From Bacteroidota bacterium (GTDB lineage Bacteria; Bacteroidota; Bacteroidia; Flavobacteriales; Flavobacteriaceae): a DNA stretch of 64,000 nucleotides. Below the pieces are notes generated by a model. It did not search any database, was not told where the DNA came from, and saw only the letters and a program-made list of their open reading frames with translations. Both the position numbers and the translations under genes were made by a program. The DNA is taken from positions 186,001 through 250,000 of the forward strand of contig JAJRRO010000032.1 in the NCBI GenBank assembly GCA_024279425.1, written 5' to 3'. The first letter of the stretch is position 1. The number at the start of each line of letters is the position of its first letter. This document shows positions 21,703-43,554 of this stretch, piece by piece.

Positions 21703-21732
21703 AAACAATTCCCTCCCAAAAATCCAAATTAC

Positions 21733-23875: not shown

Positions 23876-23877
23876 TA

Positions 23878-24174
23878 TTATTTTATGGCTTTTATTTTGT
23901 CTAAAGTTTCAGCCCACCTATGCTCTGTTGCCTTATGGGGAATTAAGGGAACTATTTGTACGGAAAAGGAGAAATAAGGGAGCGACAAGATTCGTTGATA
24001 TCCTCTACTTACCGAATTTATTTCGCTTAAAAAATGGGTAAACGCACCTCTTGATTTTAAATGTTTTGCTCTAAACGCCTTTACCGTTCTGTTGAACATG
24101 GTTTTCCACTGTGGTCCCTCTGGGGGATTGATAAAATTATTGTCCTTAATGTCCAGCTTAGATATAAACTCCAT
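23878..24174 (-). CDS. Middle piece of a split NRPS adenylation-domain insertion
   Basis: The 98-residue frame lies between the two NRPS genes, 40 bases after the upstream stop and 2 bases before the downstream ATG. I do not recognise a domain in it. Its reading frame stays open upstream of its ATG through the end of the C-A gene (...NNQNALKTEKKIKRAMEF). It corresponds to the place, between motifs A8 and A9/A10, where interrupted adenylation domains carry inserts. It is therefore either an authentic small subunit or the middle of one ancestral protein broken by two frameshifts. Confidence 0.55.
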   Translation of the reverse strand: MEFISKLDIKDNNFINPPEGPQWKTMFNRTVKAFRAKHLKSRGAFTHFLSEINSVSRGYQRILSLPYFSFSVQIVPLIPHKATEHRWAETLDKIKAIK

Positions 24175-24214
24175 TGCTCTTTTTATTTTTTTTTCAGTTT
24201 TTAGGGCATTTTGA

Positions 24215-27151
24215 TTATTGCATTTGACGTAACAAATAATCTCGTTCCTCCTCTTTTAGGGATTCAACGGACTCAAGTAGCTGCTCTGCCTGCTGGCTGT
24301 TCAAGTAGGATTCAAAATGAGTTATAATTTCCTCGGTGTCCGGGGTCTTGGACAAATCAAAAATTATCTCCCTCTCAGACTCTTCCATCATAACCACTAC
24401 TTTGTCTATCATTGGGTTCTCTCCAAGTATGTTCTCAATTTCATTCAGTTCAATTCTATGACCCCTAATCTTCACCTGCTGATCCGCTCTTCCCAAAAAT
24501 TCAATATTTCCGTCTTTCAGGTAACGTCCAAGATCTCCTGTTTTGTACAGCTTTTTTTGAGAACCTTGTTCAAAAGGATGGTTTATGTATGCCACACCTG
24601 TAAGGTCCGGTCTATTAAAATAGTTCCCTGAAAGGCCTGCCCCTCCAACGTAAATTCCCCCAATTGCTCCAAGTGGTACCAACTTAAGGGATTCACTTAG
24701 TATATATATCTCCGCATTGGCGACTGGTTTTCCTATGGGTACCACGCTACCAATATTTTCTTTGCTAATTTGATATGCAGTACACCATACCGTTGCTTCT
24801 GTTGGTCCATATTCATTGTACAAGGATACTTTTTCGAGTTTTTTAAAATGAAGATCACATAAAGAAGAGGAACAAGCTTCACCAGCGACGATTACAGTGG
24901 TCAAAGAGGGTAATTTGGAAAGGTTGCTGTACTCAAGAATCATCTTATAGAGCGAAGGCAACATAAGGGTATGACTCACTGAATTTGCAAGAATGACATC
25001 CCCAATTTTGTCAATATCCTGTTCTATCCATTTTTCGGAAATCACTAAAGTGCCTCCAGTGCAGAGCGTCCAAAAAATACCTGCTTTCGAACTATCAAAA
25101 GCAATAGAGGAAAGCAATAAAAATGCACTGGGATTTTCAGGATAATAGGTGAGCCTTCCTTGGGTAGAATTAATGATGTTGTTATGGGTTATGGGAACTC
25201 CCTTTGGCTTCCCCGTGCTTCCTGAGGTATATATTACGTATGCTATCGCATCCTTCAGTTGAACCGGTAATTTTCTGGCAGTATGTATATTCTTGTCCTT
25301 TACCACATCATCGAACATAAGAACAGCTCCCTTGAATCGATCAAAAAGGGGAGTCAGTGTTTTTTGGGTCAAAATCACCTGTACTTTGGAATCCATTAAC
25401 ATAAATTCAATGCGCTTGCTTGGGTAATCGGGATCAAGGGGCAGATATGCGCAACCCGCTTTTAATATGCCCAACAGGCAGGTAATCATTTCCAAAGAAC
25501 GTTCCGTGCATAGCCCCACAATTTCATTTTCCCCCTTAGAATAGCTTAAGATACGTTGGGCAACTATGTCTGACTCTAAAATTAATCTTTTATAAGTCAT
25601 AGATTCGTTCCCGAATACCAGTGCTTGTCTATCTGGGTTTTCTTGGGCTGCTTCCTCAATAATTTGATGAATTGCCGTAAAATGCTCAAATGGCCCGTTT
25701 TCCAGATTTTGATGGGTAAGGAAAAATGCTTTTTCCTTTTGGCTAAGCATAGGTATTTCTGAAATCGACCGGTCAGGATTGGTCGTAATACCCTCTAACA
25801 ATAATCTGTAATGTTCTTGAAATCTGATTATGGTCGGTTCTTTGAATAGATCGGTGGAATACTCAAACTCAGAAGAAAGCAACCCGTCTTCATTGGAAAT
25901 GTAGAGGGTTAAATCAAATTTGGAAATACCTTTGTTAAAAAAGGTGTACGATAGATCAATATCACGTCCAAAAGAAGGGGAAGGAGGTGCGTCATGGTAG
26001 ATGAACATAACACGGAAGAACGGATTGGTTCCGAGAGATCTTTCGGGTTTTAATTCTTTTACCAATACATCAAACGGGACATCCTTATTGGAGAATGCCT
26101 CCAAGGTGGTCTCACGCACTTTTTCAACCAATTTCATAAAGTTCATTGATGGAGACAAGCCTGTTCTCAAGACTATGGTCTCATCAAAAAAACCTATAAT
26201 ATCCTCCAATACTTTTGAATTACGTGTGGAGATAGGCGATCCAATTAATATATCTTTTTGCCCACTATATCTGAATAATAAGAGGTAATACACAGAAAGC
26301 AACAAAACATAAGGTGTTGTCTCCAGCTTTTTGGATAAGTCCAATAGACGCTTGGAAAGCCGTTCTGAATAATTTTGAATATGTGAGGCTCCCTTGAAAG
26401 AGGATTGCATTGGTGCCGGATGGTCCGTAGGAAGCTCCAATGTAGGAATCTCACCTGATAATTTCTGCTTCCAATAGTTTAGTTGGATTTCATCCACTTT
26501 TTTTTTCTGCTCCCAATAGGCGTAATCGGTATACTGAATTTTGGACTCGTTCTTAATTATTGGATGCCCCGAGTTCAGCTCATTATAATAATTTGCAAGC
26601 TGTTCGCTAAAAATGCCCATAGACCACTTATCTGTAATAATATGGTGCATGGTTATCAATAAAACAGTTTCCGTTGTACTGAGTTTTAGAATTGAAGCAC
26701 GCATCAATGGTGCCTTGTCCAGATTAAAATATTGTAACGAATCCAAAGTCAATAATTCTTCTTGCCTCTCTTTTTTGTCTGTCGCAGCCAAGTCGCTCAG
26801 ATCGAAGCTTGTAATCGCCAATTGTAGATTATCATCAAATTTTTGAATGGCTTTGCCATTGACGAAATGATATGAGCATCTTAGGATATGGTTTGCAGCG
26901 AAGATCATTTGCAAACTCTCTCGTAGATTTTCTACTTGTAGTTTCCCTTGGAAAGTATAGATTTCGGAAGAATTATAGACAGGGTTCTTAGGATAGAGCT
27001 GTTCAAGAAAATACAACCGTTGTTGCCCTCGGGAAAGTGGAATAATCGCATCTTTCGGGGCTTTGGAAATAGATTTTGATCTTGATTCTTTTTTCTTCTC
27101 CCTATTTTTCCATTTATTCAATAAGGACGAACCATTATCTTCCTTTTTCAT
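24215..27151 (-). CDS. NRPS: condensation domain and adenylation core (A-domain lacks its C-subdomain)
   Basis: The 978 residues start with a charged tail of about 35. The condensation domain (about 38-470) carries H169-H170-xxx-D174 in MHHIITDKWS. The adenylation core (about 490-905) has A3 YTSGSTGKPKG, A5 NEYGPTEAT, A7 YKTGDLGRY and A8 GRADQQVKIRGHRIELNEIE. After A8 comes about 70 residues of insert-like sequence and a stop; A9, A10 and the carrier domain are in the downstream frames. My reading of the specificity residues is D-S-A-M-I-A-E-V-W, which I cannot assign to an amino acid. The module probably adds the last residue before thioesterase release. Confidence 0.85.
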   Translation of the reverse strand: MKKEDNGSSLLNKWKNREKKKESRSKSISKAPKDAIIPLSRGQQRLYFLEQLYPKNPVYNSSEIYTFQGKLQVENLRESLQMIFAANHILRCSYHFVNGKAIQKFDDNLQLAITSFDLSDLAATDKKERQEELLTLDSLQYFNLDKAPLMRASILKLSTTETVLLITMHHIITDKWSMGIFSEQLANYYNELNSGHPIIKNESKIQYTDYAYWEQKKKVDEIQLNYWKQKLSGEIPTLELPTDHPAPMQSSFKGASHIQNYSERLSKRLLDLSKKLETTPYVLLLSVYYLLLFRYSGQKDILIGSPISTRNSKVLEDIIGFFDETIVLRTGLSPSMNFMKLVEKVRETTLEAFSNKDVPFDVLVKELKPERSLGTNPFFRVMFIYHDAPPSPSFGRDIDLSYTFFNKGISKFDLTLYISNEDGLLSSEFEYSTDLFKEPTIIRFQEHYRLLLEGITTNPDRSISEIPMLSQKEKAFFLTHQNLENGPFEHFTAIHQIIEEAAQENPDRQALVFGNESMTYKRLILESDIVAQRILSYSKGENEIVGLCTERSLEMITCLLGILKAGCAYLPLDPDYPSKRIEFMLMDSKVQVILTQKTLTPLFDRFKGAVLMFDDVVKDKNIHTARKLPVQLKDAIAYVIYTSGSTGKPKGVPITHNNIINSTQGRLTYYPENPSAFLLLSSIAFDSSKAGIFWTLCTGGTLVISEKWIEQDIDKIGDVILANSVSHTLMLPSLYKMILEYSNLSKLPSLTTVIVAGEACSSSLCDLHFKKLEKVSLYNEYGPTEATVWCTAYQISKENIGSVVPIGKPVANAEIYILSESLKLVPLGAIGGIYVGGAGLSGNYFNRPDLTGVAYINHPFEQGSQKKLYKTGDLGRYLKDGNIEFLGRADQQVKIRGHRIELNEIENILGENPMIDKVVVMMEESEREIIFDLSKTPDTEEIITHFESYLNSQQAEQLLESVESLKEEERDYLLRQMQ

Positions 27152-27171
27152 TTGTTTTTTTAATCAACAGG

Positions 27172-28428
27172 TTATCTTAATCCTAAAAATCTTAAAACAT
27201 CGCCCCCCGTCCTTCGAATTTTTTCATCAAGCACTAGGTTAATATCAAACGCCCGTTCTATAAACCAATATAATGAAATTGCAATTAGTAACATGGAAAC
27301 AAAAACTAGAAATTTGGGATATTGACGAAGTTTTCGAATCAGAAAAAGTACGGGAAAGATCATAGCTATAATAAAGACTTGCCCAATTTCCACTCCCAAA
27401 TTAAACCCGAATAGCGTTAAGGTGAGAAATTCCCCTTTAATTCCCAAATCTCCCAAGACACTTGCAAACCCAAATCCGTGGAACAATCCGAATGAAAAAG
27501 CAATTATCCAATCCCGTCCCTTAAAAATCGGTTTTATGTTGTGGTATGCGGCAAGACCTATGGACAGGGCTATGATCGACTCTACAATCCGAGAAGGCAA
27601 AACAATGACATTCAAGGAAGCCAAACTTAAAGTAATTGTATGGGCAATAGTAAAAAAGGTAATGACCTTAATAATATATATAAATGCTGGCCGGAATTTT
27701 TGAACGGGCTCCCATCCCCAAACATTAAACTTAGGCTTTGTTTTTTCTGGATCCGATACGATTAATGGAGTTTTCCGGCGTACTACGGAAGGTAGAATTA
27801 AAGCAAACAAGAATAGTATATGATCTAAGCCGATCCAGATATGCCAAATACCCTGCTTTACCATGGCTACAAATCCTTTCCAAATGGAAGTATCCGTTAA
27901 GGATAACGCTTGTGAGGTATTGTCCGAAGTGAAATTGAGGGCAATTAACGTTTCGTTGTTGATTAAGCCTGCTTTCCAGTTATATTCCATGGCCACCATC
28001 ATTACGTGGGATGGATCTTCATCAAAAAAAGCAGTGTAGTTGATTTTTAGATTATCTGGTAATTTTTCTGAATTTTCCAATTTAAAATGAAAACGGGCAA
28101 AGGAACCTTCAATGACAGGGAACATACTTATTTCATCCGTAAAGACAATTTGGTAGTCCCCATAAATTGAGGAAAAACTAGCATGTTCAAGAAGATATTC
28201 TTTGATCCGTTCAAAGGAAGGTCGCACATCTTCTACATTGGGATAATCTTTAAGTTGTAAGCCGAAAAATTGGTTCAACTCGTTGACATGAACCTCAAAT
28301 CGCCCTTCAATTCCTGCCTTTTCATAAACTCTGAAATAAATGAAACTTTGATTCGGTTGGTGTGCATAACTTACTAGAGGGGTCAAAATTAAAATAAGGA
28401 AAAAAAAATGTAGCGCTATTTTTCTCAT
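27172..28428 (-). CDS. HupE/UreJ-like membrane protein with large periplasmic N-terminal domain
   Basis: The 418-residue protein has a signal peptide (ending VSYAH), an extracytoplasmic domain of about 160 residues, and a C-terminal HupE/UreJ_2 domain of six to seven helices containing IWIGLDHILFLFALILPS, FFTIAHTITLSLASL and FGLFHGFGFASVLGDLG. The conserved His/Asp residues in these helices (GLDH, AHT, HGFGFA) are those proposed to bind Ni or Co in HupE and UreJ permeases. It lies 20 bases upstream of the C-A NRPS gene in the same direction, so it is probably the first gene of that operon and may handle the metal delivered by the peptide product. Confidence 0.85.
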   Translation of the reverse strand: MRKIALHFFFLILILTPLVSYAHQPNQSFIYFRVYEKAGIEGRFEVHVNELNQFFGLQLKDYPNVEDVRPSFERIKEYLLEHASFSSIYGDYQIVFTDEISMFPVIEGSFARFHFKLENSEKLPDNLKINYTAFFDEDPSHVMMVAMEYNWKAGLINNETLIALNFTSDNTSQALSLTDTSIWKGFVAMVKQGIWHIWIGLDHILFLFALILPSVVRRKTPLIVSDPEKTKPKFNVWGWEPVQKFRPAFIYIIKVITFFTIAHTITLSLASLNVIVLPSRIVESIIALSIGLAAYHNIKPIFKGRDWIIAFSFGLFHGFGFASVLGDLGIKGEFLTLTLFGFNLGVEIGQVFIIAMIFPVLFLIRKLRQYPKFLVFVSMLLIAISLYWFIERAFDINLVLDEKIRRTGGDVLRFLGLR

Positions 28429-28809
28429 AATTGGGTTGGTTTTAATCTAAAGAATTAAGGGGACCGAGAGCTATTAAAAGAGTTTGTCAAATTTTCAAAT
28501 ACTATCAAAGTAATACTCCAAAGCTGTGATTCCCATATTGGAGAATCTTATTAAGATATTAAGAAAACGGTGTTTTTGTATTGTTCAATAAAACTGTATT
28601 TAAATTATAAATATGATAATATTTTGGGAATTTTATTGTCTACTTGCTTTTTTTTCGATGATTGTATATAATTTATGGTTCACCTACATCGTATGCGTTT
28701 GAATACGTAATATACTTGATTTACCTTTATGAAATAAATTTTTAAGAAATTCTGGCCGCTATAAATTTGTTTAAAGAAAAGTGATTTAAATCTAAATTCA
28801 TCGCTCTAT
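28429..28809. promoter_or_regulatory. Divergent promoter region of the NRPS locus
   Basis: This 381-base AT-rich gap separates the two divergent halves of the locus. On the plus strand TAAATTTG at 28762-28769 fits the -7 element and would start transcripts about 40 bases before the adenylation gene, though no clear TTG was seen at -33. Two inverted repeats are possible operators: AAATAT/ATATTT at 28609-28624 with a 4-base spacer, and CGTAT/ATACG at 28690-28706. No gene or riboswitch was recognised. Confidence 0.45.
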
Positions 28810-30375
28810 ATGATCCATACCCTTGCACAAATAATTGAAAGATCAGCTGTTCAATTTCCTGAAAAGGATGCGTTTAGATGTTTGGATAACTCCATTACCT
28901 ATGCCCAACTGAACATCAAGGCAAATCAATTGGCCGCATATCTTATAACTTCCGGTATAATCAAGGGTGAAAGAGTTGGCATATACATGAATCGTTGTTT
29001 GGATACCACAATAGCCGTATATGGTATTCTTAAGGCTGGAGCGGCTTATGTGCCCATGGATCCTTTTATGCCCTTGAACAGAACAATTTCCATAATGCAG
29101 GATTGTGGCATAGAACATGTAATGACAACTCCTTCTCAATTAAAAAAAATAAAGTCACTAGTAGAAAAGACCTCTTTCTTGAAATCCATAGTTGGGATAA
29201 GTGAAAATTTGGGCACGACCACATTTTCATGGGAAAATATCTATTCTAAATCTTTGGAAGACTTTTGTCCACCACGAATAATGGAAGAGGATTTGGCCTT
29301 TATTCTCTATACTTCAGGTTCTACAGGTATACCAAAAGGAATCATGCATACACACAAAAGTGGGCTCAGCCTCGCAAGGCTTGCGGCCAATCTATATGAT
29401 TTTAATGAAACTGATCGTATCGGTACTTTTGCGCCCCTACACTTTGACCCCTCTACTTTTGGCTACTATGCTTCACCTTTGGTAGGGGCCACTGCTGTAA
29501 TTATACCGGATGCCCATTTAAAACTGCCTGTAAGTCTATCTGCTTTGGTGGAAAAAGAAAAAATAACTGTTTGGTTCTCAGTGCCCCTTGTACTTATACA
29601 GCTATTAACAAAAGGAGAAATAGAAAAACATGATTTCAGTTCGTTGCGCTGGGTATTGTTTGCGGGTGAAGTTTTTATAACTAAACATCTTCGGGCCTTG
29701 ATGCAGCAATGGCCTCACGCACAATTCAGTAACTTATATGGGCCTGCAGAAGTTATTCTTTGTACGTATTATAATTTAGACAGCGTTCCAGAGATGGATG
29801 AACCCATTCCAATAGGTACGGTATGGGGCAATACGGAATATAAGATTCTTGATCATACCGATAAGGAAGCTAAAAAGGGTGTTCCCGGAGAACTGGTGGT
29901 GCGTACTACTACTATGATGCATGGGTACTGGGACAATAAAGCGCTTACCGAACAATCGTTTTATAGAGTTAAAATTGCGTCTGGCTATGATCACATTTAC
30001 TATAGAACCGGTGATCTTGTTAAAGAAAATGACAATAATGAATTGCTTTTTCTTGGTAGAAATGACAGACAGATCAAGTTAAGGGGATATCGCATAGAAT
30101 TGGATGAAATTGAATTCACATTGCTTAAACATGAATTGATAGAGGAGGCAGCGGTCATGGTAGTTGAAAAATCAGATAAAAGCCATGAACTGGTAGCCGT
30201 TGTAAAACCACTTTTTGGTTCCAGTATTGAGGCCCAAAGCCTCACCGCCTTTTGTAAAACATATTTACCTGGCTACGCTGTACCGGAAACGGTGGAAATT
30301 TTAGAAGATTTTCCAAGAACCAGCTCAGGAAAGATAAATCGTAAGGAAATAACCAAAATGCTATTACCCGATTAG
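28810..30375 (+). CDS. Free-standing amino-acid adenylating enzyme (PltF/RedM-like)
   Basis: The 521-residue enzyme is a complete adenylation protein with A3 YTSGSTGIPKGIMHTH, A5 NLYGPAEVILCTYY (Ala replaces the usual Thr of GPTE), A7 YYRTGDLV, A8 GRNDRQIKLRGYRIELDEIE, and A10 SSGKINRKEI. Segments such as ITVWFSVP and LRWVLFAGEVF are typical of stand-alone enzymes that load proline onto a carrier protein. My reading of the specificity pocket is D-P-F-F-L-A-L-L-C-K, six of ten identical to the DLLYLALVCK pocket recalled for PltF/RedM. The substrate may be proline or a relative. The carrier gene follows by 2 bases. Confidence 0.87.
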   Translation: MIHTLAQIIERSAVQFPEKDAFRCLDNSITYAQLNIKANQLAAYLITSGIIKGERVGIYMNRCLDTTIAVYGILKAGAAYVPMDPFMPLNRTISIMQDCGIEHVMTTPSQLKKIKSLVEKTSFLKSIVGISENLGTTTFSWENIYSKSLEDFCPPRIMEEDLAFILYTSGSTGIPKGIMHTHKSGLSLARLAANLYDFNETDRIGTFAPLHFDPSTFGYYASPLVGATAVIIPDAHLKLPVSLSALVEKEKITVWFSVPLVLIQLLTKGEIEKHDFSSLRWVLFAGEVFITKHLRALMQQWPHAQFSNLYGPAEVILCTYYNLDSVPEMDEPIPIGTVWGNTEYKILDHTDKEAKKGVPGELVVRTTTMMHGYWDNKALTEQSFYRVKIASGYDHIYYRTGDLVKENDNNELLFLGRNDRQIKLRGYRIELDEIEFTLLKHELIEEAAVMVVEKSDKSHELVAVVKPLFGSSIEAQSLTAFCKTYLPGYAVPETVEILEDFPRTSSGKINRKEITKMLLPD

Positions 30376-30377
30376 CT

Positions 30378-30608
30378 ATGAAAGAGAGAATTATTCAATA
30401 CATAAAACATGAGATTTGTAATGAGCCATTAGAAGGTATTGATGTACAGGATGACCTTTTAGGAAGCGGCATCGTTGATTCAATGGGAATGATGAAACTC
30501 GTTCTTTTTCTGGAAAATGAATTTAAAGTGCAAATTTCCACTGAGGATATGACTGTGGAAAATTTCATGACAGTGAAAAATATAATGGAATATTTATCAA
30601 AGAAGTAA
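30378..30608 (+). CDS. Free-standing peptidyl/acyl carrier protein
   Basis: The 76-residue acidic helical protein has the phosphopantetheine site S35 in GIVDSMGMMK, then LFLENEFKVQISTEDMTVEN, which is the helix II-III region of carrier proteins. It is placed 2 bases after the adenylation gene and 26 bases before the large NRPS, so it should receive the amino acid activated upstream and present it to that NRPS's condensation domain. The Sfp-type transferase at 21733 would activate it. Confidence 0.9.
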   Translation: MKERIIQYIKHEICNEPLEGIDVQDDLLGSGIVDSMGMMKLVLFLENEFKVQISTEDMTVENFMTVKNIMEYLSKK

Positions 30609-30634
30609 ATCAATTCAACTTAAAATGCACATTA

Positions 30635-33600
30635 ATGAATAAACCTGTTGGCATATCTATACCCTTGACACAAAGTCAATTACTATTGTGGACTGGACAA
30701 AAATTGAATCCAGAGGTTCCTTTATATAATGTGCCCTATGCGTATGTAATATCTGGAGCCGTTTCAGAATCGGTTTTTAGTATGGCCTTCCAAAAATTGA
30801 TCAACAAGGTAGACGTGATGCGCACCATTTTTTTTGAAGAAAAGGGGCAGCCTTACCAATCAGTTTTACCTCATTTGAATTATACGCTTGAATTTGTTGA
30901 TTTTACTTCAACAACCAGTGATAAAGAAGTTAGGGATTGGATGGGACGTAGGAGTCAGCGTTTGTTTGATATGTCTAGGCCTCTATTTGATGCTGCTCTT
31001 TTAAAGGTCGATGACGAAAGGTATATATGGTTCTTAAATGTACACCATCTAATAATAGATGCAATATCTTCTATTATTCTATTTGAAAGAATGTCTGAAA
31101 TATATAGCCTAATTCAAAGTAAGGATGTCGGTGAAATAACAGAATTACCCCGGTATACGGCTTATGTTAATTTTGAAGCGAATCAACGAAAAAGTGATAC
31201 CCATGAAAAAAATGAATCGTATTGGAAGAAAAAGTTAAAAAATGGTTTAGAAACCCCACCATTATATGGGCCTAAGAAACCAACGACTACAACGAGATCT
31301 GAGCGTGTTGGTGTTAAACTTGGTTTGGAGCGATCTCATAAAATCAAGGAATTGGCCGCCCGTCCGGAAATCCGTGCATGGACCCAAGATCTTAGTCTTT
31401 TTAACCTATTCGCTACCCTTCTTTTTGTCTTTCTATATAGGGTCAGTGGTCAGAAAAAAATATCTGTTGGAGCTCCTTTCCATAATCGGACAGCCAATTT
31501 TAAAGAAACTATCGGGCTATTTATCGAATTATTTCCAATAGTTGACGAACTAGTGGAAGAAGACACCTTTTTTTCCGTTCTCCAGCGCATTCGATTAGAA
31601 TCCAACAACAATTTGCGACATGCGCAACCAGGAATGGCCACTTTTGATATAGGCAAAAGTTTTAGTGCCGTTCTGAACTATATGACTTCAAGTTACCCGG
31701 ATTTTGACAAATTCCCTACGAAATCTGAATGGATTCATCCAAACCATTCTGATTCAGCTCATCAAATACGTTGCCATGTGGCAGATTTTGATGCTACTGG
31801 AGAAATTGAAATTTTCTTCGACCTAAACCACGGCACATTTGACCAAAGTCTGTACCAAAAGGTTCCTCAACACTTTTTGAATTTGATGGATGCTATGCTT
31901 GCCAATGTAAATACTCCGATCAATCAACCTGAAATCAGTACCGAGGAAGAGAGGAACAATTTATTGGAAAAATCAGCACCGAATAATACCTATAGTTCTT
32001 TTCTTGAGCTGTTTTCGAAATCTGTTGCAGATAGTCCTAATGAAACGGCATTAAGCTATTGGGACAAAGAGCTCAGTTATATGGCGTTGAACAAAAAAGC
32101 CAATCAATTGGCATCTTATTTACAACAGCAAGGATTAAAACCTAAAGATAAAGTAGGACTGTATTTTTTTCGCAGCCCGGAATATATCATAAGTCTACTT
32201 GCTGTTATGAAATTAGGGGCCACTTTTGTCCCAATAGCTTCGGATCAACCCTCTGAACGCATCACCTATATTCTTGAGAATGCTAATTGCAGCTTGGTCT
32301 TGACAGATAGTATGTTGAGAGTGGGTATGAATAGCGGCCCCGCACGAGTTTTGGAGGTAAATTTGGAAAATATAAGTGCTATAATTTATGAAGAAAGAGC
32401 TATTGATAGACTGCCGAATAAGAATGATATTGCTTACATTCTCTATACCTCTGGGTCTACGGGACGCCCTAAAGGCGTAATGATATCACACGGGGCTTTG
32501 TCCAACTACTTGCAGTGGGCTATGGTTTACTATAAAATGGATAAAGCTTTTATCTTTCCCTTTTTCACTTCTATTGGCTTTGACCTTACCATTACGTCTA
32601 CTTTTCTGCCCCTGCTGAGCGGTGGTGAATTGGTTATATATAGGGAAAGTGATAGCGGTCCGGATATTTCTCTTATGCAAGTGATAGCGGACAATAAGGT
32701 GAATTCCATTAAGCTCACACCATCCCATATTGCTTTGATTCAAGAGCGAGATTTGTCGTCTTCAAAAATTAGGACCATGATTGTTGGAGGAGAAGATTTA
32801 AAGACTAATATCGCGAACTTAATTAAGAAATCGTTAAGAGAGAAGACGCGTATTTATAATGAATATGGACCTACAGAGGCTACAGTTGGCTGTATTGTCT
32901 GTGAGTTTGATCCTGAGCAACATACAGGGGTGTCTGTTCCTATAGGAAAACCTATTTTCAATATAGATGTTTATGTATTGGATACGTATAAAAACAGGGT
33001 TCCCCAAGGGGTGGTTGGAGAACTCTACCTAAGCGGAAGTGGTTTATCCGATGGCTATGTCAATATGGATTCTCTTTCAAAAGAGAAATTCGTTAAAAAT
33101 GCTTTTGTACCCAATGCCAGAATGTACCGTACGGGAGATCTCGCACGTTTGAACAACAATGGAAATCTTGACTATTTGGGGAGGCTTGACGAACAGGTTA
33201 AGCTGAATGGGTTCAGGATAGAACTATCGGATATTGAGGCAAATATTGCTAATCATCCTGCTGTAGAAAATGCCGCAGTAGTGTTGTTAAATGGGAAGCA
33301 TTCAATCCCTGAAAGCGAAGTTGTCAATTGCACGGAGTGCGGTCTGCCTTCAAACTATCCAAATGCAGATTTTGACGAGCAGGGTGTTTGTCATCTCTGC
33401 ACAGCATTTAAGGGATACAAGGAAAAAACGGATAAATATTTTAAAACCGAAGAAGAGCTTAAATTATTGCTCACCTCCAACAAAAATAAGGACAGGTATA
33501 CTGGCTATGACTGCTTATCACTATTAAGCGGCGGAAAGGACAGCACCTACATTTTGGCTAGGCTTATAAACATGGGACTTAAGGTTTTGGCCTTTACCTT

Positions 33601-34780
33601 GGATAACGGATATATTTCTGACCAGGCCAAAGCCAATATTGATAGCATAGTTAATAAGCTTGGGGTTGATCATATATACGGGGAAACACCCCATATGAAC
33701 AAAATTTTTGTGGATAGCCTGCATAGGCACCAAAATGTATGTAACGGTTGCTTTAAGACCATTTATACGCTAAGTACCAAAATAGCTTTGGATAAGAATA
33801 TTCCGTTTGTGGTTACAGGACTCTCAAGAGGACAATTTTTTGAAACCCGATTAACGGAGGAGCTTTTTTGGGATGACACTGCCGATACCACAACTATTGA
33901 TGATACCATACTGGAAGCGCGAAAATTATATCACCAAGAGAAAGATGCAGTAAAACAACTATTGGACGTGTCCATGTTCAATGACGAAAGTACATTTGAT
34001 AAAGTGCAGTTTGTAGACTTTTACAGATATAGCAATGTAAGTTTGAGTGAAATGTTGCAATATTTAAAGGATAAAGTAGCTTGGGTACGACCTACGGATA
34101 CGGGGCGGTCTACCAATTGCCTCATTAATCAGGTTGGTATCTATGTGCACAAAAAAGAAAAAGGATATAGTAACTATTCCTTTCCCTACAGTTGGGATGT
34201 ACGTTTAGGGCACAAAACCAGGGCTGAAACCCTGGAGGAAATCAATGAATACATTGAAGAGAAAGAAGTTAAGCTCATTATAGAGGAGATTGGCTATGAA
34301 GAACCAAATGATTCTAATGAAAACAGGCAGCGACTAGTGGGGTATTATACTGGAAATTCAAAACTTCCCTCCATTGAATTGAACAGGCATCTATCAAAAA
34401 AGTTACCGGAATATATGATACCCAGTCTGTTTAAGTATTTAAATGAATTGCCCCTAACTGGTAACGGGAAAGTAGATAAGGCTGCATTGAGAAGCCTAAA
34501 TGATGTTCAGTTGGAAATGGATACGCCTTTTGTGGCCCCTAGTAACGAGATTGAAGAACTTTTGGAAGGTTATTGGAAGGAAGTGTTACAACTAAACAAA
34601 GTAGGTGTACACGATAATTTTATTGCCTTGGGAGGACATTCCTTGGCAGCCATAAGAGTTACTACACGGATAAATGATGAACTTGAGATGGGTTTCCCGT
34701 TGAACAAAATTTTTGATTTGCCCACCATAGCGGAATACGCACTACTTATTGAGAAGACCATTGTAGAGCTATTGGAGTAA
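30635..34780 (+). CDS. NRPS C-A-PCP with a PP-loop ATP-pyrophosphatase domain inserted in the adenylation domain
   Basis: The 1381 residues contain a condensation domain (about 8-445) with H137-H138-xxx-D142, and an adenylation core (about 455-890) with TSGSTG at 605-610, NEYGPTEATVGC and GRLDEQVKLNGFRIE. The inserted domain (about 895-1235) has two Zn-finger-like pairs (C899/C902, C919/C922), PP-loop SGGKDST at 965-971, CNGC (C1036, C1039) and a distal C1162 in GRSTNCLIN. Then come the adenylation C-subdomain (NGKVDK, K1279) and PCP S1336 in LGGHSLAAI. There is no thioesterase. The pocket reads D-L-T-K-I-G-E-V-G-K, one residue from the Asn code DLTKLGEVGK. The insert resembles WbpG/TtcA/QueC-type ATP-pyrophosphatases, so asparagine modification (for example thioamide or nitrile) is inferred. 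Confidence 0.9.
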   Translation: MNKPVGISIPLTQSQLLLWTGQKLNPEVPLYNVPYAYVISGAVSESVFSMAFQKLINKVDVMRTIFFEEKGQPYQSVLPHLNYTLEFVDFTSTTSDKEVRDWMGRRSQRLFDMSRPLFDAALLKVDDERYIWFLNVHHLIIDAISSIILFERMSEIYSLIQSKDVGEITELPRYTAYVNFEANQRKSDTHEKNESYWKKKLKNGLETPPLYGPKKPTTTTRSERVGVKLGLERSHKIKELAARPEIRAWTQDLSLFNLFATLLFVFLYRVSGQKKISVGAPFHNRTANFKETIGLFIELFPIVDELVEEDTFFSVLQRIRLESNNNLRHAQPGMATFDIGKSFSAVLNYMTSSYPDFDKFPTKSEWIHPNHSDSAHQIRCHVADFDATGEIEIFFDLNHGTFDQSLYQKVPQHFLNLMDAMLANVNTPINQPEISTEEERNNLLEKSAPNNTYSSFLELFSKSVADSPNETALSYWDKELSYMALNKKANQLASYLQQQGLKPKDKVGLYFFRSPEYIISLLAVMKLGATFVPIASDQPSERITYILENANCSLVLTDSMLRVGMNSGPARVLEVNLENISAIIYEERAIDRLPNKNDIAYILYTSGSTGRPKGVMISHGALSNYLQWAMVYYKMDKAFIFPFFTSIGFDLTITSTFLPLLSGGELVIYRESDSGPDISLMQVIADNKVNSIKLTPSHIALIQERDLSSSKIRTMIVGGEDLKTNIANLIKKSLREKTRIYNEYGPTEATVGCIVCEFDPEQHTGVSVPIGKPIFNIDVYVLDTYKNRVPQGVVGELYLSGSGLSDGYVNMDSLSKEKFVKNAFVPNARMYRTGDLARLNNNGNLDYLGRLDEQVKLNGFRIELSDIEANIANHPAVENAAVVLLNGKHSIPESEVVNCTECGLPSNYPNADFDEQGVCHLCTAFKGYKEKTDKYFKTEEELKLLLTSNKNKDRYTGYDCLSLLSGGKDSTYILARLINMGLKVLAFTLDNGYISDQAKANIDSIVNKLGVDHIYGETPHMNKIFVDSLHRHQNVCNGCFKTIYTLSTKIALDKNIPFVVTGLSRGQFFETRLTEELFWDDTADTTTIDDTILEARKLYHQEKDAVKQLLDVSMFNDESTFDKVQFVDFYRYSNVSLSEMLQYLKDKVAWVRPTDTGRSTNCLINQVGIYVHKKEKGYSNYSFPYSWDVRLGHKTRAETLEEINEYIEEKEVKLIIEEIGYEEPNDSNENRQRLVGYYTGNSKLPSIELNRHLSKKLPEYMIPSLFKYLNELPLTGNGKVDKAALRSLNDVQLEMDTPFVAPSNEIEELLEGYWKEVLQLNKVGVHDNFIALGGHSLAAIRVTTRINDELEMGFPLNKIFDLPTIAEYALLIEKTIVELLE

Positions 34781-34796
34781 AAAAGAAAGAAAACGA

Positions 34797-35264
34797 ATGA
34801 AAGCAAGGTTTGTACATAAGTGGGTTAAGCCCATGTTCATTAAACAAATAGCAATGCTAATGTGTATTTGCTATTTGTTGAATCCAATGTACCACCAAGT
34901 CAATAATTTATTGCATACCATTTCCCATGGCCTGGAAATTCCCGATGTTGTGCTTTCACATCAAGCCCGTGCCTCAGATGCTCATAATTACAGTCACGGA
35001 TATCATGAACATGGTATCTCTGAAGTACAACATAAACATAGTTTCATCGATTTTGTGAATGCTATTTTTGAAGCATTAAACACGGAAGACCAATCTAGTG
35101 ACACCTCAATAAAAGACAAAAAAATTGATAAGCATATCGCTACTCAGCAATACCACCTACATAAATTGATTACCATAAATGTGGATGTTGTCTTTTGGGA
35201 ATTTGTTCGCAAATCACATGTGGGCTATCAGTATACCACAGACCGCCCGCCCGAAAACTTCTAA
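34797..35264 (+). CDS. Small His-rich exported protein, probable metal binding
   Basis: The 155-residue protein starts with basic residues and a hydrophobic stretch (about 15-36, MFIKQIAMLMCICYLL) that can act as signal peptide or anchor. It is rich in His, with clusters HNYSHGYHEHG and VQHKHSF. No named domain is recognised. It lies 16 bases after the NRPS gene and 241 bases before the TonB receptor on the same strand. By composition and place it is likely a periplasmic or membrane-anchored metal-binding accessory protein. The function is inferred. Confidence 0.72.
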   Translation: MKARFVHKWVKPMFIKQIAMLMCICYLLNPMYHQVNNLLHTISHGLEIPDVVLSHQARASDAHNYSHGYHEHGISEVQHKHSFIDFVNAIFEALNTEDQSSDTSIKDKKIDKHIATQQYHLHKLITINVDVVFWEFVRKSHVGYQYTTDRPPENF

Positions 35265-35423
35265 GATCAAGCTTCACGTATGGGTGGCGGATTACGTCCG
35301 CTCAATAATCCTTTGGTTTTTAACTTAGGATGAGGTATTGGCTACTTTCCACTTATGCAAAACCTTGATGGCTTGATCCAATTTCATTTTTTTTATAGTA
35401 CCCTGTTTAGAAGGCAAGATTGT

Positions 35424-35441
35424 CATCATATGAATATGATG
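35424..35441. promoter_or_regulatory. Inverted repeat upstream of the TonB receptor (candidate operator)
   Basis: CATCATAT (35424-35431) and ATATGATG (35434-35441) form a perfect 8-2-8 inverted repeat, 65-82 bases before the receptor's ATG. A metal-responsive repressor of the Fur/Zur or NikR type would fit the context, but the sequence does not exactly match a consensus I know. The rest of the 241-base gap holds a small GC hairpin (GCGGA/TCCGC at 35287-35301) and nothing else recognised. Confidence 0.4.
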
Positions 35442-35505
35442 TCTGTCGACCTTGGTATTTAGCGAACCAATGGAGTAATCAATAAGAATCAATAAAATAT
35501 AGAAA

Positions 35506-37737
35506 ATGATACGATATATAATATGCTTTGCATTCCTTGTCTTTTTCAGCAATCTAAGAGCACATGAATTAAGCGGCACTATTGTTACCGAAGGGAATAT
35601 CCCTTTGGAAGGAGTAGGGGTGTACAATAAGACCACTGGGGGATATACCTATTCCAATGTTTCAGGATATTTTGAACTGGATGATATCTCTGTGAATGAC
35701 ATCATCTATTTTTATAGTCTTGGATATAAGAACCAGCAAATCACCATCGTTGAGAACCAATTGGATGGCATTGTTAGCATTGTACTTATAGAATCGGCGG
35801 TATCCCTAGATCAAGTGGTATTGGTTTCAAAAGTAAATGTATTGAGCACTTTTGTAAATGTAGACATGAAGGCGAATCCTGTAAAGTCTACCCAAGAAAT
35901 CCTTAGGAAGATTCCAGGCCTCATTATTGGGCAACATGCCGGAGGTGGTAAGGCCGAACAAATTTTCTTAAGGGGTTTTGATATTGACCATGGTACCGAC
36001 ATTGCGATCAATGTAGATGGTTTGCCTGTAAATATGGTCTCTCATGCTCATGGACAGGGCTATGCGGACATGCATTTTGTGATTCCTGAAACCATTGATA
36101 ATATCGATTTTGGAAAAGGCCCTTATTATGCTGATAAGGGAAATTTTAATACGGCGGGTTATGTGGATTTAAAAACTAAGAAAACCATTGATAAAAATTT
36201 ACTGTCCCTAGAAACGGGGCGATTCAACACACTTAGGGCATTGGCTATGTTCAAAGTGGTTGAGGGCGATGATAGCAATGCGTATATAGCATCTGAGCTT
36301 ATGCTCGCCGATGGTGTTTTTGAATCGCCACAAAACTTTAATCGGTTAAACATTATGGGTCGCTATAATTATAACAACAGGGAAAATCAAGATCTTAGTG
36401 TTACCCTATCCCATTTCCAGAGCAAGTGGGATGCTTCTGGGCAAATACCCCAGCGTTCAGTAGATCAGGGATCCATTAGTAGGTTTGGTGCCATTGACGA
36501 CACCGAAGGCGGAAACACCAGTAGGTCCAATTTATGGGTAAACCATAGTAAACAGATTGATGAGCATTCGCGAGTAAAATCAAAAGCATATGTTTCAAAA
36601 TATGATTTTGAGCTGTTTTCCAATTTTACGTTTTTCTTGGAAGATGCCATTAATGGTGATCAGATACAACAAATAGAAGATCGTACAATTATTGGCGCCG
36701 AAACCCTATATGAACGTTCGTTTCATTTAAAAGACCACGATTCACAATTTGGGTATGAGTCCGGCGTAGGATTTCGATATGATGATATAAATGATGTGCA
36801 ATTATCCCGGACCTTAAATAGACAAACCATATTGGAACGCTTAGCTTTTGGAAACGTAGATGAGTTCAATATTTATGGATTTATACAGGGCACCTATAAA
36901 AGGAACAAATGGACCCTGAATCCAGGGATACGAATAGATTATTTTAAATTTGATTATGAAGATCTGCTAACGGAAACCTATGATAACAAGAGTGAGAACA
37001 AGGTTTTACCAAGCCCTAATCTGAATATAATATACGCGGCATCTTCGGGCTTACAGCTATTCGTAAAGATGGGGGTAGGTTTTCATTCCAATGATGCAAG
37101 GGTCGTTACTGCCAATAATGGGAAGAAGGTACTACCTGTAGCTTTTGGAGCCGATATTGGGGCCATTATTAAACCAATGGATCGTTTAGTGCTCAATGCA
37201 GCGCTATGGAGCCTATTTCTACAACAAGAATTTGTTTATGTGGGAGATGCCGGAATTGTGGAACCCAGCGGAAAAACTCAACGTTATGGATTGGATTTGG
37301 GATTGAGGTATCAACTAACGGATTGGCTTTACTTTAATGGGGACATTAACTATAGCCATGCCAGGAGTATAGAAGAGTTGGAAGGGGAAGATTATATTCC
37401 ATTATCCCCCGACCTAACATCCTCGGGAGGGCTTACTTTTAGGGATTTGGATAAATTTTCGGGAGGATTAAATTATCGATATATCAAGGATCGGCCAGCC
37501 AATGAAGACAATTCCATAGTTGCCGATGGTTACTTTGTGACCGATTTCAACTTAAACTACACCTTGAGGAACTGGACATTTGGATTAATTGTGGAAAATT
37601 TGTTCGATATCGAATGGAACGAAACCCAGTTTGCCACCCAAAGTAGATTATTTGATGAGCCTATGCCAATTGAAGAAATACACTTCACTCCGGGAACTCC
37701 ATTTTTTGCCAGGATTAAAGTGTCTTTAAGCTTCTAA
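35506..37737 (+). CDS. TonB-dependent outer-membrane receptor, likely for the locus product
   Basis: The 743-residue receptor has a signal peptide (about 1-19, ending LRAH), a CarboxypepD_reg-like beta-sandwich (about 20-90; PLEGVGVYNKTTGGYTYSNV), a plug (about 120-225) and a 22-strand-type barrel ending in KVSLSF with a terminal Phe. The plug carries the unusual His-containing stretch IDHGTDIAINVDGLPVNMVS followed by HAHGQGYADMHF, suggesting metal contact. It is too short and lacks the features of a SusC glycan importer. It is the last plus-strand gene of the NRPS locus. Uptake of a metal-peptide complex is inferred from context. Confidence 0.85.
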   Translation: MIRYIICFAFLVFFSNLRAHELSGTIVTEGNIPLEGVGVYNKTTGGYTYSNVSGYFELDDISVNDIIYFYSLGYKNQQITIVENQLDGIVSIVLIESAVSLDQVVLVSKVNVLSTFVNVDMKANPVKSTQEILRKIPGLIIGQHAGGGKAEQIFLRGFDIDHGTDIAINVDGLPVNMVSHAHGQGYADMHFVIPETIDNIDFGKGPYYADKGNFNTAGYVDLKTKKTIDKNLLSLETGRFNTLRALAMFKVVEGDDSNAYIASELMLADGVFESPQNFNRLNIMGRYNYNNRENQDLSVTLSHFQSKWDASGQIPQRSVDQGSISRFGAIDDTEGGNTSRSNLWVNHSKQIDEHSRVKSKAYVSKYDFELFSNFTFFLEDAINGDQIQQIEDRTIIGAETLYERSFHLKDHDSQFGYESGVGFRYDDINDVQLSRTLNRQTILERLAFGNVDEFNIYGFIQGTYKRNKWTLNPGIRIDYFKFDYEDLLTETYDNKSENKVLPSPNLNIIYAASSGLQLFVKMGVGFHSNDARVVTANNGKKVLPVAFGADIGAIIKPMDRLVLNAALWSLFLQQEFVYVGDAGIVEPSGKTQRYGLDLGLRYQLTDWLYFNGDINYSHARSIEELEGEDYIPLSPDLTSSGGLTFRDLDKFSGGLNYRYIKDRPANEDNSIVADGYFVTDFNLNYTLRNWTFGLIVENLFDIEWNETQFATQSRLFDEPMPIEEIHFTPGTPFFARIKVSLSF

Positions 37738-37904
37738 TTAATTTTAATAGCGTTAATCATTAATGCAATGATTTGTGTTTACTGCTTATGTCAAAAATCT
37801 TTTAATGAAGATTATTGATGAGCATAAAATTTCCGCATCATTTTTTGCTTTGGCATTTCCTTTAATCGAAAGAATTCCTCGAAGCGCTGCGTGAGCCTGC
37901 CTAT

Positions 37905-37935
37905 TGTAGCCTTCCCCTTTTTAGGAAAGGCTACA
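37905..37935. terminator. Hairpin with IS-end sequence, between converging TonB receptor and capsule operon
   Basis: TGTAGCCTTCCCCTTTTTAG followed by GAAAGGCTACA folds into an 11-pair stem (one G-U on the minus strand) around a 6-base A/T loop. Its first 19 bases match the IS-end sequence at 21402-21423, and it begins TGTAG and ends CTACA like a nearly fully deleted IS. Lying 15 bases beyond the last capsule gene in a convergent gap, it could now serve as a bidirectional terminator. The rest of the 209-base gap (37738-37949) holds nothing recognised. Confidence 0.55.
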
Positions 37936-37949
37936 GGATGACATGGCGG

Positions 37950-38777
37950 CTATTTAAAGGCAGAAGAGAAATCCAATGGAATGAGCCCAAATTTCCTCCT
38001 AAAACTTTTAGTAACTAACTTAACCCTGTATTTGGCCAATTTTCGGATGATATTCTCAAAGAAGTCTTTTTTAAAAAAGCTATAAGAGTTCATCTTTTTT
38101 ACGGCCTCTGGGGTACTGCAATAATTTTCCGTATTTCCAATACTGTATATGGCTCCAGGGAAGGGCAGCGGCAACAACTTTTTGTTAGTATCCAGTGTTG
38201 TAAAATCATGATTGAAGAGTGGACGTGGATTTTCCTCCAACAAATGACCTACATAGTCCGATTTGATAATGATGCAGGTACCACATAATACATTGAAGGT
38301 ATTTTTGTTTAAAAAAATAAAATTGCTTCCCTCATTATAAATATAGCCCTTCTTAAAATACCAACCAGGGGTGTTCGCTGTATCATTTTCCACAAATGAA
38401 ACCAGATTTTTGTTAATGCAGTCATCTGCATCAACCACCATATAATGGGACGGTTTATATTTTTCTCCATATGCTACCCCTTTCATTATTTTTTTGGCCT
38501 TATCCGCTTCTTTGGCGGCGTTACGGTAGTTTTGGGTATCTGCAGATGGAATATCCTGTGCGGCCTCGTGGGTGGGTGGGTCAAAATCCACTTGAACAAA
38601 TTCCAGTGCTGGATGTTCAAAGTTTAGTTTGGGAATTTCATGGCAAACGGCAATCACCTTAAAATTTTGAGAGGTTTGTTGGCATATGGACTTCATGGTC
38701 CGTGTTACCAAAACAGAAAATACTTCCCAATTGGATGAAATTTGTGCACTTTTTATGGGTACAATGAATACTAGCAT
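37950..38777 (-). CDS. Glycosyltransferase family A (GT2-like)
   Basis: This 275-residue GT-A fold protein has an N-terminal strand MLVFIVPIKSAQ and a metal/nucleotide motif D116-A-D118-D119 in HYMVVDADDCIN. Length and order fit small GT2-like transferases of polysaccharide loci, without a membrane helix. It is the last gene of the capsule operon. The transferred sugar is unknown. There is a gap of 32 bases to the upstream FemAB-like gene. Confidence 0.75.
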   Translation of the reverse strand: MLVFIVPIKSAQISSNWEVFSVLVTRTMKSICQQTSQNFKVIAVCHEIPKLNFEHPALEFVQVDFDPPTHEAAQDIPSADTQNYRNAAKEADKAKKIMKGVAYGEKYKPSHYMVVDADDCINKNLVSFVENDTANTPGWYFKKGYIYNEGSNFIFLNKNTFNVLCGTCIIIKSDYVGHLLEENPRPLFNHDFTTLDTNKKLLPLPFPGAIYSIGNTENYCSTPEAVKKMNSYSFFKKDFFENIIRKLAKYRVKLVTKSFRRKFGLIPLDFSSAFK

Positions 38778-38809
38778 TTTATTTCTTTTTATTAGTTGTT
38801 GTCAATTGA

Positions 38810-39832
38810 TTACAATGTTGCTCTATAGGCCGGAAAAAAATCGGTCTCACCAACCTTGGCCGATAAACATAAATCCGAGTACGTCTTTTGGTTTACTATA
38901 TGGGTCCAAAGTTTAAATTGTTTGGTGTCATTGGAAAATGAAGATTTAAAATTGAACAAAGCATCTTCTTTACTTTGATAACCACCACCCAAATTAAAGT
39001 AGGTATATCCCTCTTGAGTCCCTTGGATTCTCATTTCGTCCAACAACAGTCGAGAGGGGGCAATCTTCATATATTCGGATTTAGTACCTGATAAATGGTA
39101 TTGAATAATATTATTGGACTTTACGAACATAGATCCAGCGGCTATTTCCTTACTTTCATTATGAACGGCCAATAGTATTTCTGTTTTAAAACCATCACAA
39201 CTTAGAAAATTGAAAAAATAATCAGGATCAAAAAAATATGTGGTATCCGCGTTCAGTTTTTCCATGGTTTCGTTGTAGATGGCTATAAAGGCGAGAATAT
39301 CTTCCTTGGTCTCGGCCTTTTTAACCGAACATAATCTTCTAGCTTTGTTCACCCTACTTTTGGTGTCTCTTCTGTAGGCAGCTCTTTGCTCTTCCAAGCT
39401 AATGGTCAAGTCTATATTTACTACCTTCCCAATAGCTTTAACCGCACCTATTCCATTAAGAATGGTTTCTTGATATGGGATATATGGGTTAAGCCGCGAG
39501 AATACGGATACAATATTTTGTTCCTCCAAATAGGAATTCAAACTAGTCTGGAAATTTAATGTGTCAAAATCTTGGGTAATACCCTTGGTCAAAGGCCCTG
39601 CATATCCATAGACCGAAGTTGCATCATAGTATGCAGTATCACCTATTCCCCGAATCAAAAGGGGTAGGGCAATTAGTATATTCCCCTCTTCATATACTAC
39701 CAATACAGGGGTTTCTTCTTGGTTTTTTGAAATAGTATGGTAATCATAGGTGTGATAGAAATCGTATGTTTCTATTTTGTTCAAGATAGTATCCCATTCT
39801 ACCTTTGTTTTTATGATATTAATCATGCCCAT
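38810..39832 (-). CDS. FemAB/GNAT-like acyl or aminoacyl transferase
   Basis: The 340-residue protein has the double-GNAT arrangement of FemAB/CelD-like proteins: an N-terminal half with YDATSVYGYAGPLTKG, a central basic region RAAYRRDTKSRVNKARRLCS, and a second half with EIAAGSMFVKSNNIIQYHLS and YFNLGGGYQSKEDALFNFK. Such proteins add acyl or amino-acid groups to cell-wall or exopolysaccharide sugars using acyl-CoA or aminoacyl-tRNA. It starts 7 bases after the GT4 gene and probably decorates the capsule repeat unit. The donor is not predictable. A fragment of a similar gene lies at 21571-21702. Confidence 0.75.
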   Translation of the reverse strand: MGMINIIKTKVEWDTILNKIETYDFYHTYDYHTISKNQEETPVLVVYEEGNILIALPLLIRGIGDTAYYDATSVYGYAGPLTKGITQDFDTLNFQTSLNSYLEEQNIVSVFSRLNPYIPYQETILNGIGAVKAIGKVVNIDLTISLEEQRAAYRRDTKSRVNKARRLCSVKKAETKEDILAFIAIYNETMEKLNADTTYFFDPDYFFNFLSCDGFKTEILLAVHNESKEIAAGSMFVKSNNIIQYHLSGTKSEYMKIAPSRLLLDEMRIQGTQEGYTYFNLGGGYQSKEDALFNFKSSFSNDTKQFKLWTHIVNQKTYSDLCLSAKVGETDFFPAYRATL

Positions 39833-39839
39833 TTCTATA

Positions 39840-40967
39840 TTAAATGATCTTTTGATAAATTACTACGGTTTTAGAAGTCATTGCATCAACGGTGAAATTT
39901 GCAATGGCCTTTTCTTTTCCCTTTCTCGCAACGGCTTTTTTTAGGTTTGGATTTTGGATGATTAGTTCAATAATTTGGGACAACTCCCTGGCATCACCAT
40001 TTTGAAATATAAAACCGTCCTCTCCATGGGTTATTTGATCCAACGCTCCATTTGTATCTGTTCTAATGGTGCAACATCCACTCATCATGGCTTCAACGCA
40101 CACCAAGCCGAAAGCCTCTGATAAGGAGGGCAAAACAAACACATCAAAAATATGATAAAATGGTTTCGGATCTTGAAAGGGGACTATCGTTATTTGTTTG
40201 GCGATAGAAGATTTGGAAATAATGTCCTCTAGCCATTTTTTATCTTCTTCATTGAAATAATCTCCCAAAAAGATTAAATGAATTTTATCCGAAAGGGCGT
40301 GGGGAAGATGATGTTCAACAGCTGATATTAAAACATCCAATCCTTTTTCTAGGGTAATTCTTCCAACAAAACCAATAATAATGGAATTTTCAAGTATTCC
40401 ATATTTAGCCTTGAGCGCTATTTTTTCGCTTTCAGGGATGGTATTTTCGTACCTTTTGGAGATACCATGGCAAACTACCGAAACTCTGTTCGATTTTGCA
40501 CCAAGTGTTTCAATAGCATAGCTTTTGGATTCCCGACTAATAGCGATCAATTGCGTTGGATTTTTATATTTTAAATTTTCCACCAGTTGTACATTATGAA
40601 CCGTGGTAATAAATTTTTTCCCTAGCATCCAAGGTAAAAAAGTCATATAAGGGGATTGGGAATGGATTATATCTGTTTTAGAAATGGATATCCAAACCAG
40701 TATTTGAAATATGGAAGAAATAGAGGTCAGTATTCTATTTATAATATTTCCTTTAGGAGTTTTAAAAGTTTTTATTTCAATATTCAAGGCATTAAAACCG
40801 TCTAATATCTTGATGAGGTATTCGTTATTGTCGTCTGTAACGCCACCCGTTATCATGGTTATTTGATGCCCTTGTTTTACGAGTCCTTGGGCTAAGTCCA
40901 AGGTGTGTAAGGTAACCCCACTTTTTTCTATTCTACTAAGTAAGAAAAGGATTTTCATTGTGGCCAA
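39840..40967 (-). CDS. Glycosyltransferase family 4
   Basis: This 375-residue GT-B fold enzyme has an N-terminal nucleotide-fold start (KILFLLSRIEKSGVTLHTLD), central IIIGFVGRITLEKGLDVLI and the GT4 EX7E region in PSLSEAFGLVCVEAMMSG. An ATG three codons downstream (MKILFLL) is an equally good start. It is one of the sugar transferases that assemble the capsule repeat unit at the cytoplasmic face. The sugar is unknown. Confidence 0.87.
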   Translation of the reverse strand: MATMKILFLLSRIEKSGVTLHTLDLAQGLVKQGHQITMITGGVTDDNNEYLIKILDGFNALNIEIKTFKTPKGNIINRILTSISSIFQILVWISISKTDIIHSQSPYMTFLPWMLGKKFITTVHNVQLVENLKYKNPTQLIAISRESKSYAIETLGAKSNRVSVVCHGISKRYENTIPESEKIALKAKYGILENSIIIGFVGRITLEKGLDVLISAVEHHLPHALSDKIHLIFLGDYFNEEDKKWLEDIISKSSIAKQITIVPFQDPKPFYHIFDVFVLPSLSEAFGLVCVEAMMSGCCTIRTDTNGALDQITHGEDGFIFQNGDARELSQIIELIIQNPNLKKAVARKGKEKAIANFTVDAMTSKTVVIYQKII

Positions 40968-41019
40968 CTATTATTTATTAGTTGTGGTTAAATGGGTCTT
41001 TATTTGAAAATGGTATCAT

Positions 41020-42217: not shown

Positions 42218-42352
42218 AGAGAATAACTATAACAAAGTAAGTATTTATTTTTCGCTCAAATAGGATTTTATGGTCAAATGACCATTATTATTGGGTTAAT
42301 GGCATGATATAACCAAATAGCTGCGTATAGGTTTTATATACTCAATTAGAAT

Positions 42353-43549: not shown

Positions 43550-43554
43550 AAATA

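Follow-up and report, generated by a model that had tools for sequence, protein, structure and literature searches.

What does an ATP pyrophosphatase do inside the adenylation (A) domain of a nonribosomal peptide synthetase (NRPS)? The question is raised by a gene at 30635-34780 on the + strand of a 64,000-nucleotide stretch of a Flavobacteriaceae contig (JAJRRO010000032.1; the window). Its 1381-residue product is one NRPS module, made up of a condensation (C) domain, an A domain and a peptidyl carrier protein (PCP), in which a PP-loop domain interrupts the A domain. We consider it very probable that this insert is an amide-activating tailoring domain that acts on a carrier-bound substrate. 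A bolder reading goes further, and we give it a probability of roughly one in three. The module would install sulfur in cis, as thio-asparagine, through a [4Fe-4S] PP-loop domain inside its own A domain, and the product would be a soft-metal metallophore of marine Flavobacteriaceae whose genes have spread horizontally to Acidobacteriota and Rhodobacterales.

An interrupted asparagine-type adenylation domain

The open reading frame (ORF) begins with the C domain (residues 9-444, 30659-31966, Pfam Condensation), which contains HHLIIDA at 137-143, and ends with the PCP (34562-34741; PP-binding at 1310-1369, GGHSL at 1333-1337). Between them lie the A domain core up to motif A8 (residues 461-864, 32015-33226; AMP-binding at 461-808) and the remainder of the A C-terminal subdomain (residues 1216-1290, 34280-34504; AMP-binding_C at 1232-1279). 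The two parts are separated by an insert of about 318 residues (approximately 898-1215, 33326-34279) that was recognized by profile, fold and model. The A motifs are intact on both sides: A3 (604-614), A5 (742-748), A7 (831-836) and A8 (GRLDEQVKLNGFRIEL, 849-864) precede the insert, and A9 (LPEYMIP, 1257-1263) and A10 (1277-1282) follow it. The initial annotation had described a complete PP-loop ATP pyrophosphatase between A8 and A10. The profile, the motifs and the fold match bear out such a domain within the A domain, but the positions of the motifs make A8-A9 the more exact site. The PP-loop domain at this site is, judging by its residues, of the catalytic type. Each residue named at the outset (C899/902, C919/922, SGGKDST at 965-971, C1036/1039 and C1162) was found exactly there; further cysteines of the protein are at 380, 552, 753, 756 and 960.

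A structure predicted for residues 450-1381 (mean pLDDT 80.4, pTM 0.50) places the insert between strands 877-885 and 1233-1240, which gives the impression of a domain set into a loop of the A C-terminal subdomain. A model of residues 877-1235 on their own reached a pLDDT of 82.5 and a pTM of 0.83. By motif anchoring, the binding pocket reads DLTKIGEVG, an Asn-type code. This agrees with the earlier reading DLTKIGEVGK, whose final Lys is the A10 lysine, appended to the code rather than read. The Asn-type code was kept in all 33 NRPS modules for which it was read (25 DLTKIGEVG, 4 DLSKIGEVG, 3 DLTKVGEVG and 1 DLTKIGEIG).

A domains interrupted by other enzymes are known, and the Lundy et al. 2020 survey of them is said to describe families that carry methyltransferase inserts. 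According to the text available of the review PMC11355689, the a8-a9 site used here is the commonest one in interrupted A domains (A-M-A; Ox and KR inserts); unlike the M, Ox and KR inserts named there, the present insert is a PP-loop ATP pyrophosphatase. We found no report in the open-access literature, to which the search was confined, of a PP-loop or sugar-amidotransferase domain inserted into the A domain of an NRPS, nor a characterized product from such an enzyme, as the initial annotation had also supposed. Both interrupted A domains and carrier-directed Fe-S AANH enzymes have precedents; what seems new is that a single module combines them. If our reading is correct, ATP-dependent amide activation would be a new catalytic class among the tailoring domains internal to A domains, and would explain how an NRPS places a thioamide or amidine at a single chosen residue. 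The insert sequence could also serve as a handle for genome mining.

Family of the insert and its cysteines

The initial annotation had proposed that the insert alone be searched against ATP-pyrophosphatase families. Relatives of this kind were indeed matched, the nearest being TIGR03573 (WbuX, N-acetyl sugar amidotransferase, or NASAT), with 6e-38 over profile positions 4-325 of 344; the score of 131.1 bits lies below the curated cut-off of 203.2. The LarE model (1.1e-4) and the TtuA model (E 0.033) were far weaker. The best fold match was the solved NASAT 8wex (Foldseek 3.8e-12, TM 0.57/0.54), followed by TtuA, YcfA, [4Fe-4S] LarE and asparagine synthetase. Among the families that had been cited for comparison, the WbpG type (NASAT/WbuX, matched at full length) is thus nearest, and TtcA/TtuA and QueC are not. 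The profile match makes the insert a divergent relative, across its full length, of the NASATs, which form amidines.

The text available of PMC10607449 defines the NASAT family by CXXCXn[GN]XCXXC, with zinc found by inductively coupled plasma mass spectrometry, and by SGGXDS. The insert carries both motifs, as the tetracysteine C899/902/919/922 (33329-33400) and the PP-loop SGGKDST (33527-33547). Given this fit, the four cysteines are most simply zinc ligands in a probable zinc ribbon. The proposal that both N-terminal CxxC pairs bind an Fe-S cluster was therefore rejected, and C1036, C1039 and C1162 alone resemble an Fe-S triad. The match to NASATs thus includes the full length, the zinc tetracysteine, the PP-loop and the best fold match. 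The differences are the location within an NRPS A domain, the sub-cut-off score, a Cys triad that WbpG-type members lack, two replaced acids and, in the neighborhoods scanned, the lack of a HisH glutaminase.

A QueC-like conversion of Asn to a nitrile, which had been offered beside the thioamide, is very unlikely. The insert does exceed the cut-off of PF06508 (QueC; 26.6 versus 22 bits), but this match is short and covers the PP-loop half only, and the QueC equivalog TIGR00364 was not reached (24.4 versus 150.3 bits). The copy in L033 is below the Pfam QueC cut-off, and a match to nitrile synthetase was non-significant (E 0.48). We rejected this chemistry as the main reading because the match is short and confined to the PP-loop.

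The triad (33740-34120, which encloses Q1067 and N1161) has a layout like that of CtaC and TtuA and was analyzed by aligning the 34 NRPS-associated copies to 68 further relatives. The seven cysteines and SGGKDS are invariant in 34/34 NRPS-associated copies. C1036, C1039 and C1162 are accordingly present in all of these and in 0/17 WbpG-type NASATs, a set selected by regular expression. Q1067 and N1161, likewise found in 34/34 copies, stand at columns of conserved NASAT acids. Both positions are Glu in 17/17 WbpG-type proteins and in 6/6 members of a triad-bearing NASAT subclade; among 39 other relatives, column 1067 is 87% Glu and column 1161 is 51% Asp. The choice of these two columns was our own. 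Median identity to the window's protein was 79% for the insert, 72% for the PCP and 53% for the A core (27 homologues each), and 44% for the C domain (26 homologues), making the insert the best-conserved part of the protein. The invariance of the Cys residues and SGGKDS, together with conservation above that of the A core and C domain, argues that the insert did not arise by chance. The same two results make a degenerate, structural or regulatory insert without catalysis, conceivable on general grounds only, highly improbable.

In the triad-bearing NASAT subclade (L070-L071 and L073-L076), the triad takes the form CWHC plus a distal Cys, and the one member tested scored over the TIGR03573 cut-off. 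Fe-S binding in this subclade is apparently unstudied in the NASAT structure paper, as far as its available text extends (PMC10607449).

Sulfur, ammonia or ring closure

That the insert adenylates the amide of carrier-bound Asn, with sulfur taking the place of oxygen to give a thioamide, is a tentative proposal from the motifs, which we put somewhat short of an even chance. The A domain would load Asn onto the PCP, and the insert would bind ATP and adenylate the amide oxygen in the side chain of this Asn, whether still uncondensed or already joined to the starter. A nucleophile would then displace AMP, most likely sulfide carried by a [4Fe-4S] cluster on C1036/C1039/C1162. The resulting thio-asparagine would give a short metallophore, ordered starter acid, modified Asn, third residue, its soft metal ligand; a thioesterase would release the product and a TonB receptor would recover it with its metal. 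We take the side-chain amide to be the target because a backbone target would not require Asn. According to the text available of PMC11355689, inserted M domains act on a substrate already attached to the T domain.

We favor sulfur on the strength of the triad, the precedent of CtaC, the exchange of two NASAT acids, the lack of a glutaminase in the neighborhoods scanned and the gene setting. CtaC, the closthioamide thioamide synthetase, is an Fe-S AANH enzyme that thioamidates PCP-bound peptide chains (PMC6772006, text available in part). Insert and CtaC both have a PP-loop and a carrier-bound peptide as presumed substrate, and in both a CxxC and a distal Cys follow the PP-loop Asp at comparable distances (+67/+193 in the insert versus +77/+207 in CtaC); the comparison was made through published residue numbers alone. 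Unlike the insert, CtaC is a separate protein of an NRPS-independent pathway and acts on backbone amides. The combination of PP-loop, CxxC and distal Cys is that of the Fe-S sulfur-inserting AANH enzymes TtcA, TtuA and CtaC. TtcA/TtuA and [4Fe-4S] LarE resemble the insert in PP-loop fold and CxxC+C layout (fold matches 5b4f and 8cnz), and the CxxC of the triad aligns with that of [4Fe-4S] mmLarE (8cnz). Their sequence match to the insert is weak, and their substrates are tRNA or cofactors.

The main rival is that the insert retains NASAT chemistry, in which the amide in the Asn side chain (or that between starter and Asn) would react with ammonia to give an amidine, which a GAMT-like enzyme may N-methylate in some relatives. 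NASAT ancestry and this methyltransferase give the proposal its standing, and we regard it as unlikely but serious. It draws on the full-length TIGR03573 match, the fold match to 8wex and the tetracysteine common to insert and NASATs, but the score of 131 bits against a cut-off of 203 and the replacement of two conserved NASAT acids by Q1067 and N1161 speak against it. So does the gene neighborhood, although free ammonia could substitute for a glutaminase. A HisH-like glutaminase was present on the fetched stretch of 48/61 NASAT rows without the triad and directly adjacent in 31; we found none in 28 NRPS sources (window positions 10001-50000 and 27 loci of 5-21 kb, 348 ORFs). A nearby HisH partner is the usual, not a universal, NASAT trait. 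Rows L053, L055 and L057 were left out of this profile, and L072 and L157, both without HisH, were counted as lacking the triad yet have an alignment-shifted CxxC and distal Cys.

A GAMT-like methyltransferase (1xcj, 1.7e-23) is encoded in L017, L022, L024, L030 and L087, and in partial form in L021. In the first four of these it is 262-263 residues long and lies at the split in the A domain of the second NRPS of the cluster. Its presence in five relatives suits an amidine, but the gene is confined to a handful of loci, where it usually lies at the split second A domain, and the window has a remnant only. This is a 98-residue ORF (23878-24174, - strand) between the two halves of the second A domain, which looks like a shortened GAMT-like protein from N-terminal similarity judged by eye.

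The methyltransferase is one of several points that weigh against sulfur insertion. The nearest characterized family is, by profile and fold, amidine-forming. The triad-bearing NASAT subclade adjoins HisH in 2/6 cases, one of them also next to a His_biosynth (HisF-type) gene; the triad on its own is therefore no proof of sulfur chemistry, and we rejected it as such. In two plasmid relatives, a gene annotated hisH lies beside polysaccharide genes, roughly 12 kb away from the NRPS. Finally, no sulfur-mobilizing gene was identified in the cluster, for which no dedicated search was made. The earlier claim that the insert modifies the amide of the tethered residue thus stands in part: activation of its carbonyl remains the likeliest function and a thioamide is plausible in view of CtaC (PMC6772006, available text), but an amidine competes with it.

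The third proposal needs neither a glutaminase nor a sulfur donor. One amide carbonyl would be activated, and a nitrogen from a neighboring amide or amine in the carrier-bound chain would attack it. The product would be a cyclic amidine, such as a dihydropyrimidinone from starter-Asn, and no outside nucleophile would be needed. PP-loop relatives such as carbapenam synthetase perform ring closure, and 1q15, a structure of that enzyme, was a fold match. Because the invariant Cys triad would be left unexplained, we consider ring closure quite improbable and keep sulfur insertion as the preferred reading.

Distribution and neighboring genes

A genome-contig scan yielded 27 loci, 25 of them in records with flavobacterial names (one labelled Cytophaga), one in an Acidobacteria metagenome-assembled genome (MAG) and one in a Saprospiraceae MAG. 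Full matches were found in 17/199 genomes of the window's family, its own included, with one partial match at 1.9e-23. In a sample of the phylum, with at most five candidates scored per genome, 37/395 genomes matched, but only two at NRPS level (the window's own and G392), the rest being 1.4e-25 or weaker. In the phylum of the Acidobacteria MAG, 4/247 genomes matched at NRPS level and one more at 2e-33. Matches were found in 4/72,556 plasmid records: Roseovarius and Pseudohalocynthiibacter (53%), Streptomyces sp. NBC_01216 (39%) and a short match to a 7-cyano-7-deazaguanine synthase. On the Streptomyces plasmid (L067 13062-17112), a PP-loop domain of the NRPS clade shares its protein with a partial C domain; its neighbors are a stand-alone A-PCP protein, asnB, an Asp/Glu racemase and a tyrosine aminomutase. 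Given this arrangement, the copy does not count as an A-domain insert.

Of the 55 rows chosen for a tree, the 14 NRPS-associated domains grouped on a single branch (100/100). Next to join them (97/90) was the nearest stand-alone protein, L165 8151-9146, whose own branch is long; it belongs to a genome of the same phylum as the Acidobacteria MAG and shares the triad, Q and N. By this sequence tree, the insert domains are one clade across Bacteroidota, Acidobacteriota, Rhodobacterales and a Streptomyces plasmid. The range of hosts suggests horizontal spread of the insert-bearing NRPS, and the recurrence of the arrangement in distant groups makes it look real and testable.

The NRPS genes are kept together with a TonB-dependent receptor (35506-37737, +) and a HupE/UreJ_2 membrane protein (27172-28428, -), each present in 25/27 loci, some of which stop at contig edges. 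The receptor and transport-type genes suggest metallophore biosynthesis, in keeping with the metal-linked setting first proposed, and point to a conserved, apparently uncharacterized metallophore-like family of marine bacteria. Upstream of the module, on the same strand, are a stand-alone A enzyme for probable starter loading (28810-30375; code DPFFLALLC; homologue in 13/27 loci) and a discrete PCP of 76 residues (30378-30608; 26/27 loci). A second NRPS on the - strand consists of a C-A core (24215-27151; code DSALIAEVW) and, in a separate ORF, the A C-terminal part, PCP and thioesterase (22544-23875). Its code is DSAL-I/M/V-AEVW in 22/26 sequences, and the other four are truncated at that site. 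This NRPS (22544-27151) takes up two ORFs, with the break between A8 and A9, in the window and several relatives; in others it is one long ORF. The cluster also encodes a 4'-phosphopantetheinyl transferase (21733-22566, -) and a small His-rich membrane-type protein without family match (34797-35264, +; homologue in 23/27 loci).

A dehydrogenase resembling the prolyl-PCP dehydrogenases is encoded in 5/27 loci and also in L068, L087, L162, L163 and L164; L087 additionally has an ornithine cyclodeaminase. The two of these dehydrogenases that were tested matched the RedW/PigA models at 1e-107 to 1e-114, under the equivalog cut-offs. From these genes, the starter in the loci concerned is probably proline converted to pyrrole-2-carboxyl. 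No such dehydrogenase was found within the window, whose starter code DPFFLALLC resembles a prolyl code only loosely. Five matches elsewhere in the same genome (best 4.8e-78, none over the cut-off) were discarded, since 9/14 control genomes also matched.

A metal-regulator operator was rejected, as 24 regions upstream of HupE share no palindrome, and a riboswitch search of 20000-39000 gave one sub-threshold match only. Solved structures did not indicate a substrate for the TonB receptor, the matches being short and limited to the plug region. Within the region upstream of HupE (28429-28809), a non-palindromic element, ATCGAAAAA (often ATCATCGAAAAA), occurs in 16/24 regions. To the right of the TonB gene lies a polysaccharide cluster (38810-47334, -) with glycosyltransferases, a sugar transferase, a formyltransferase and a FemAB-like protein.

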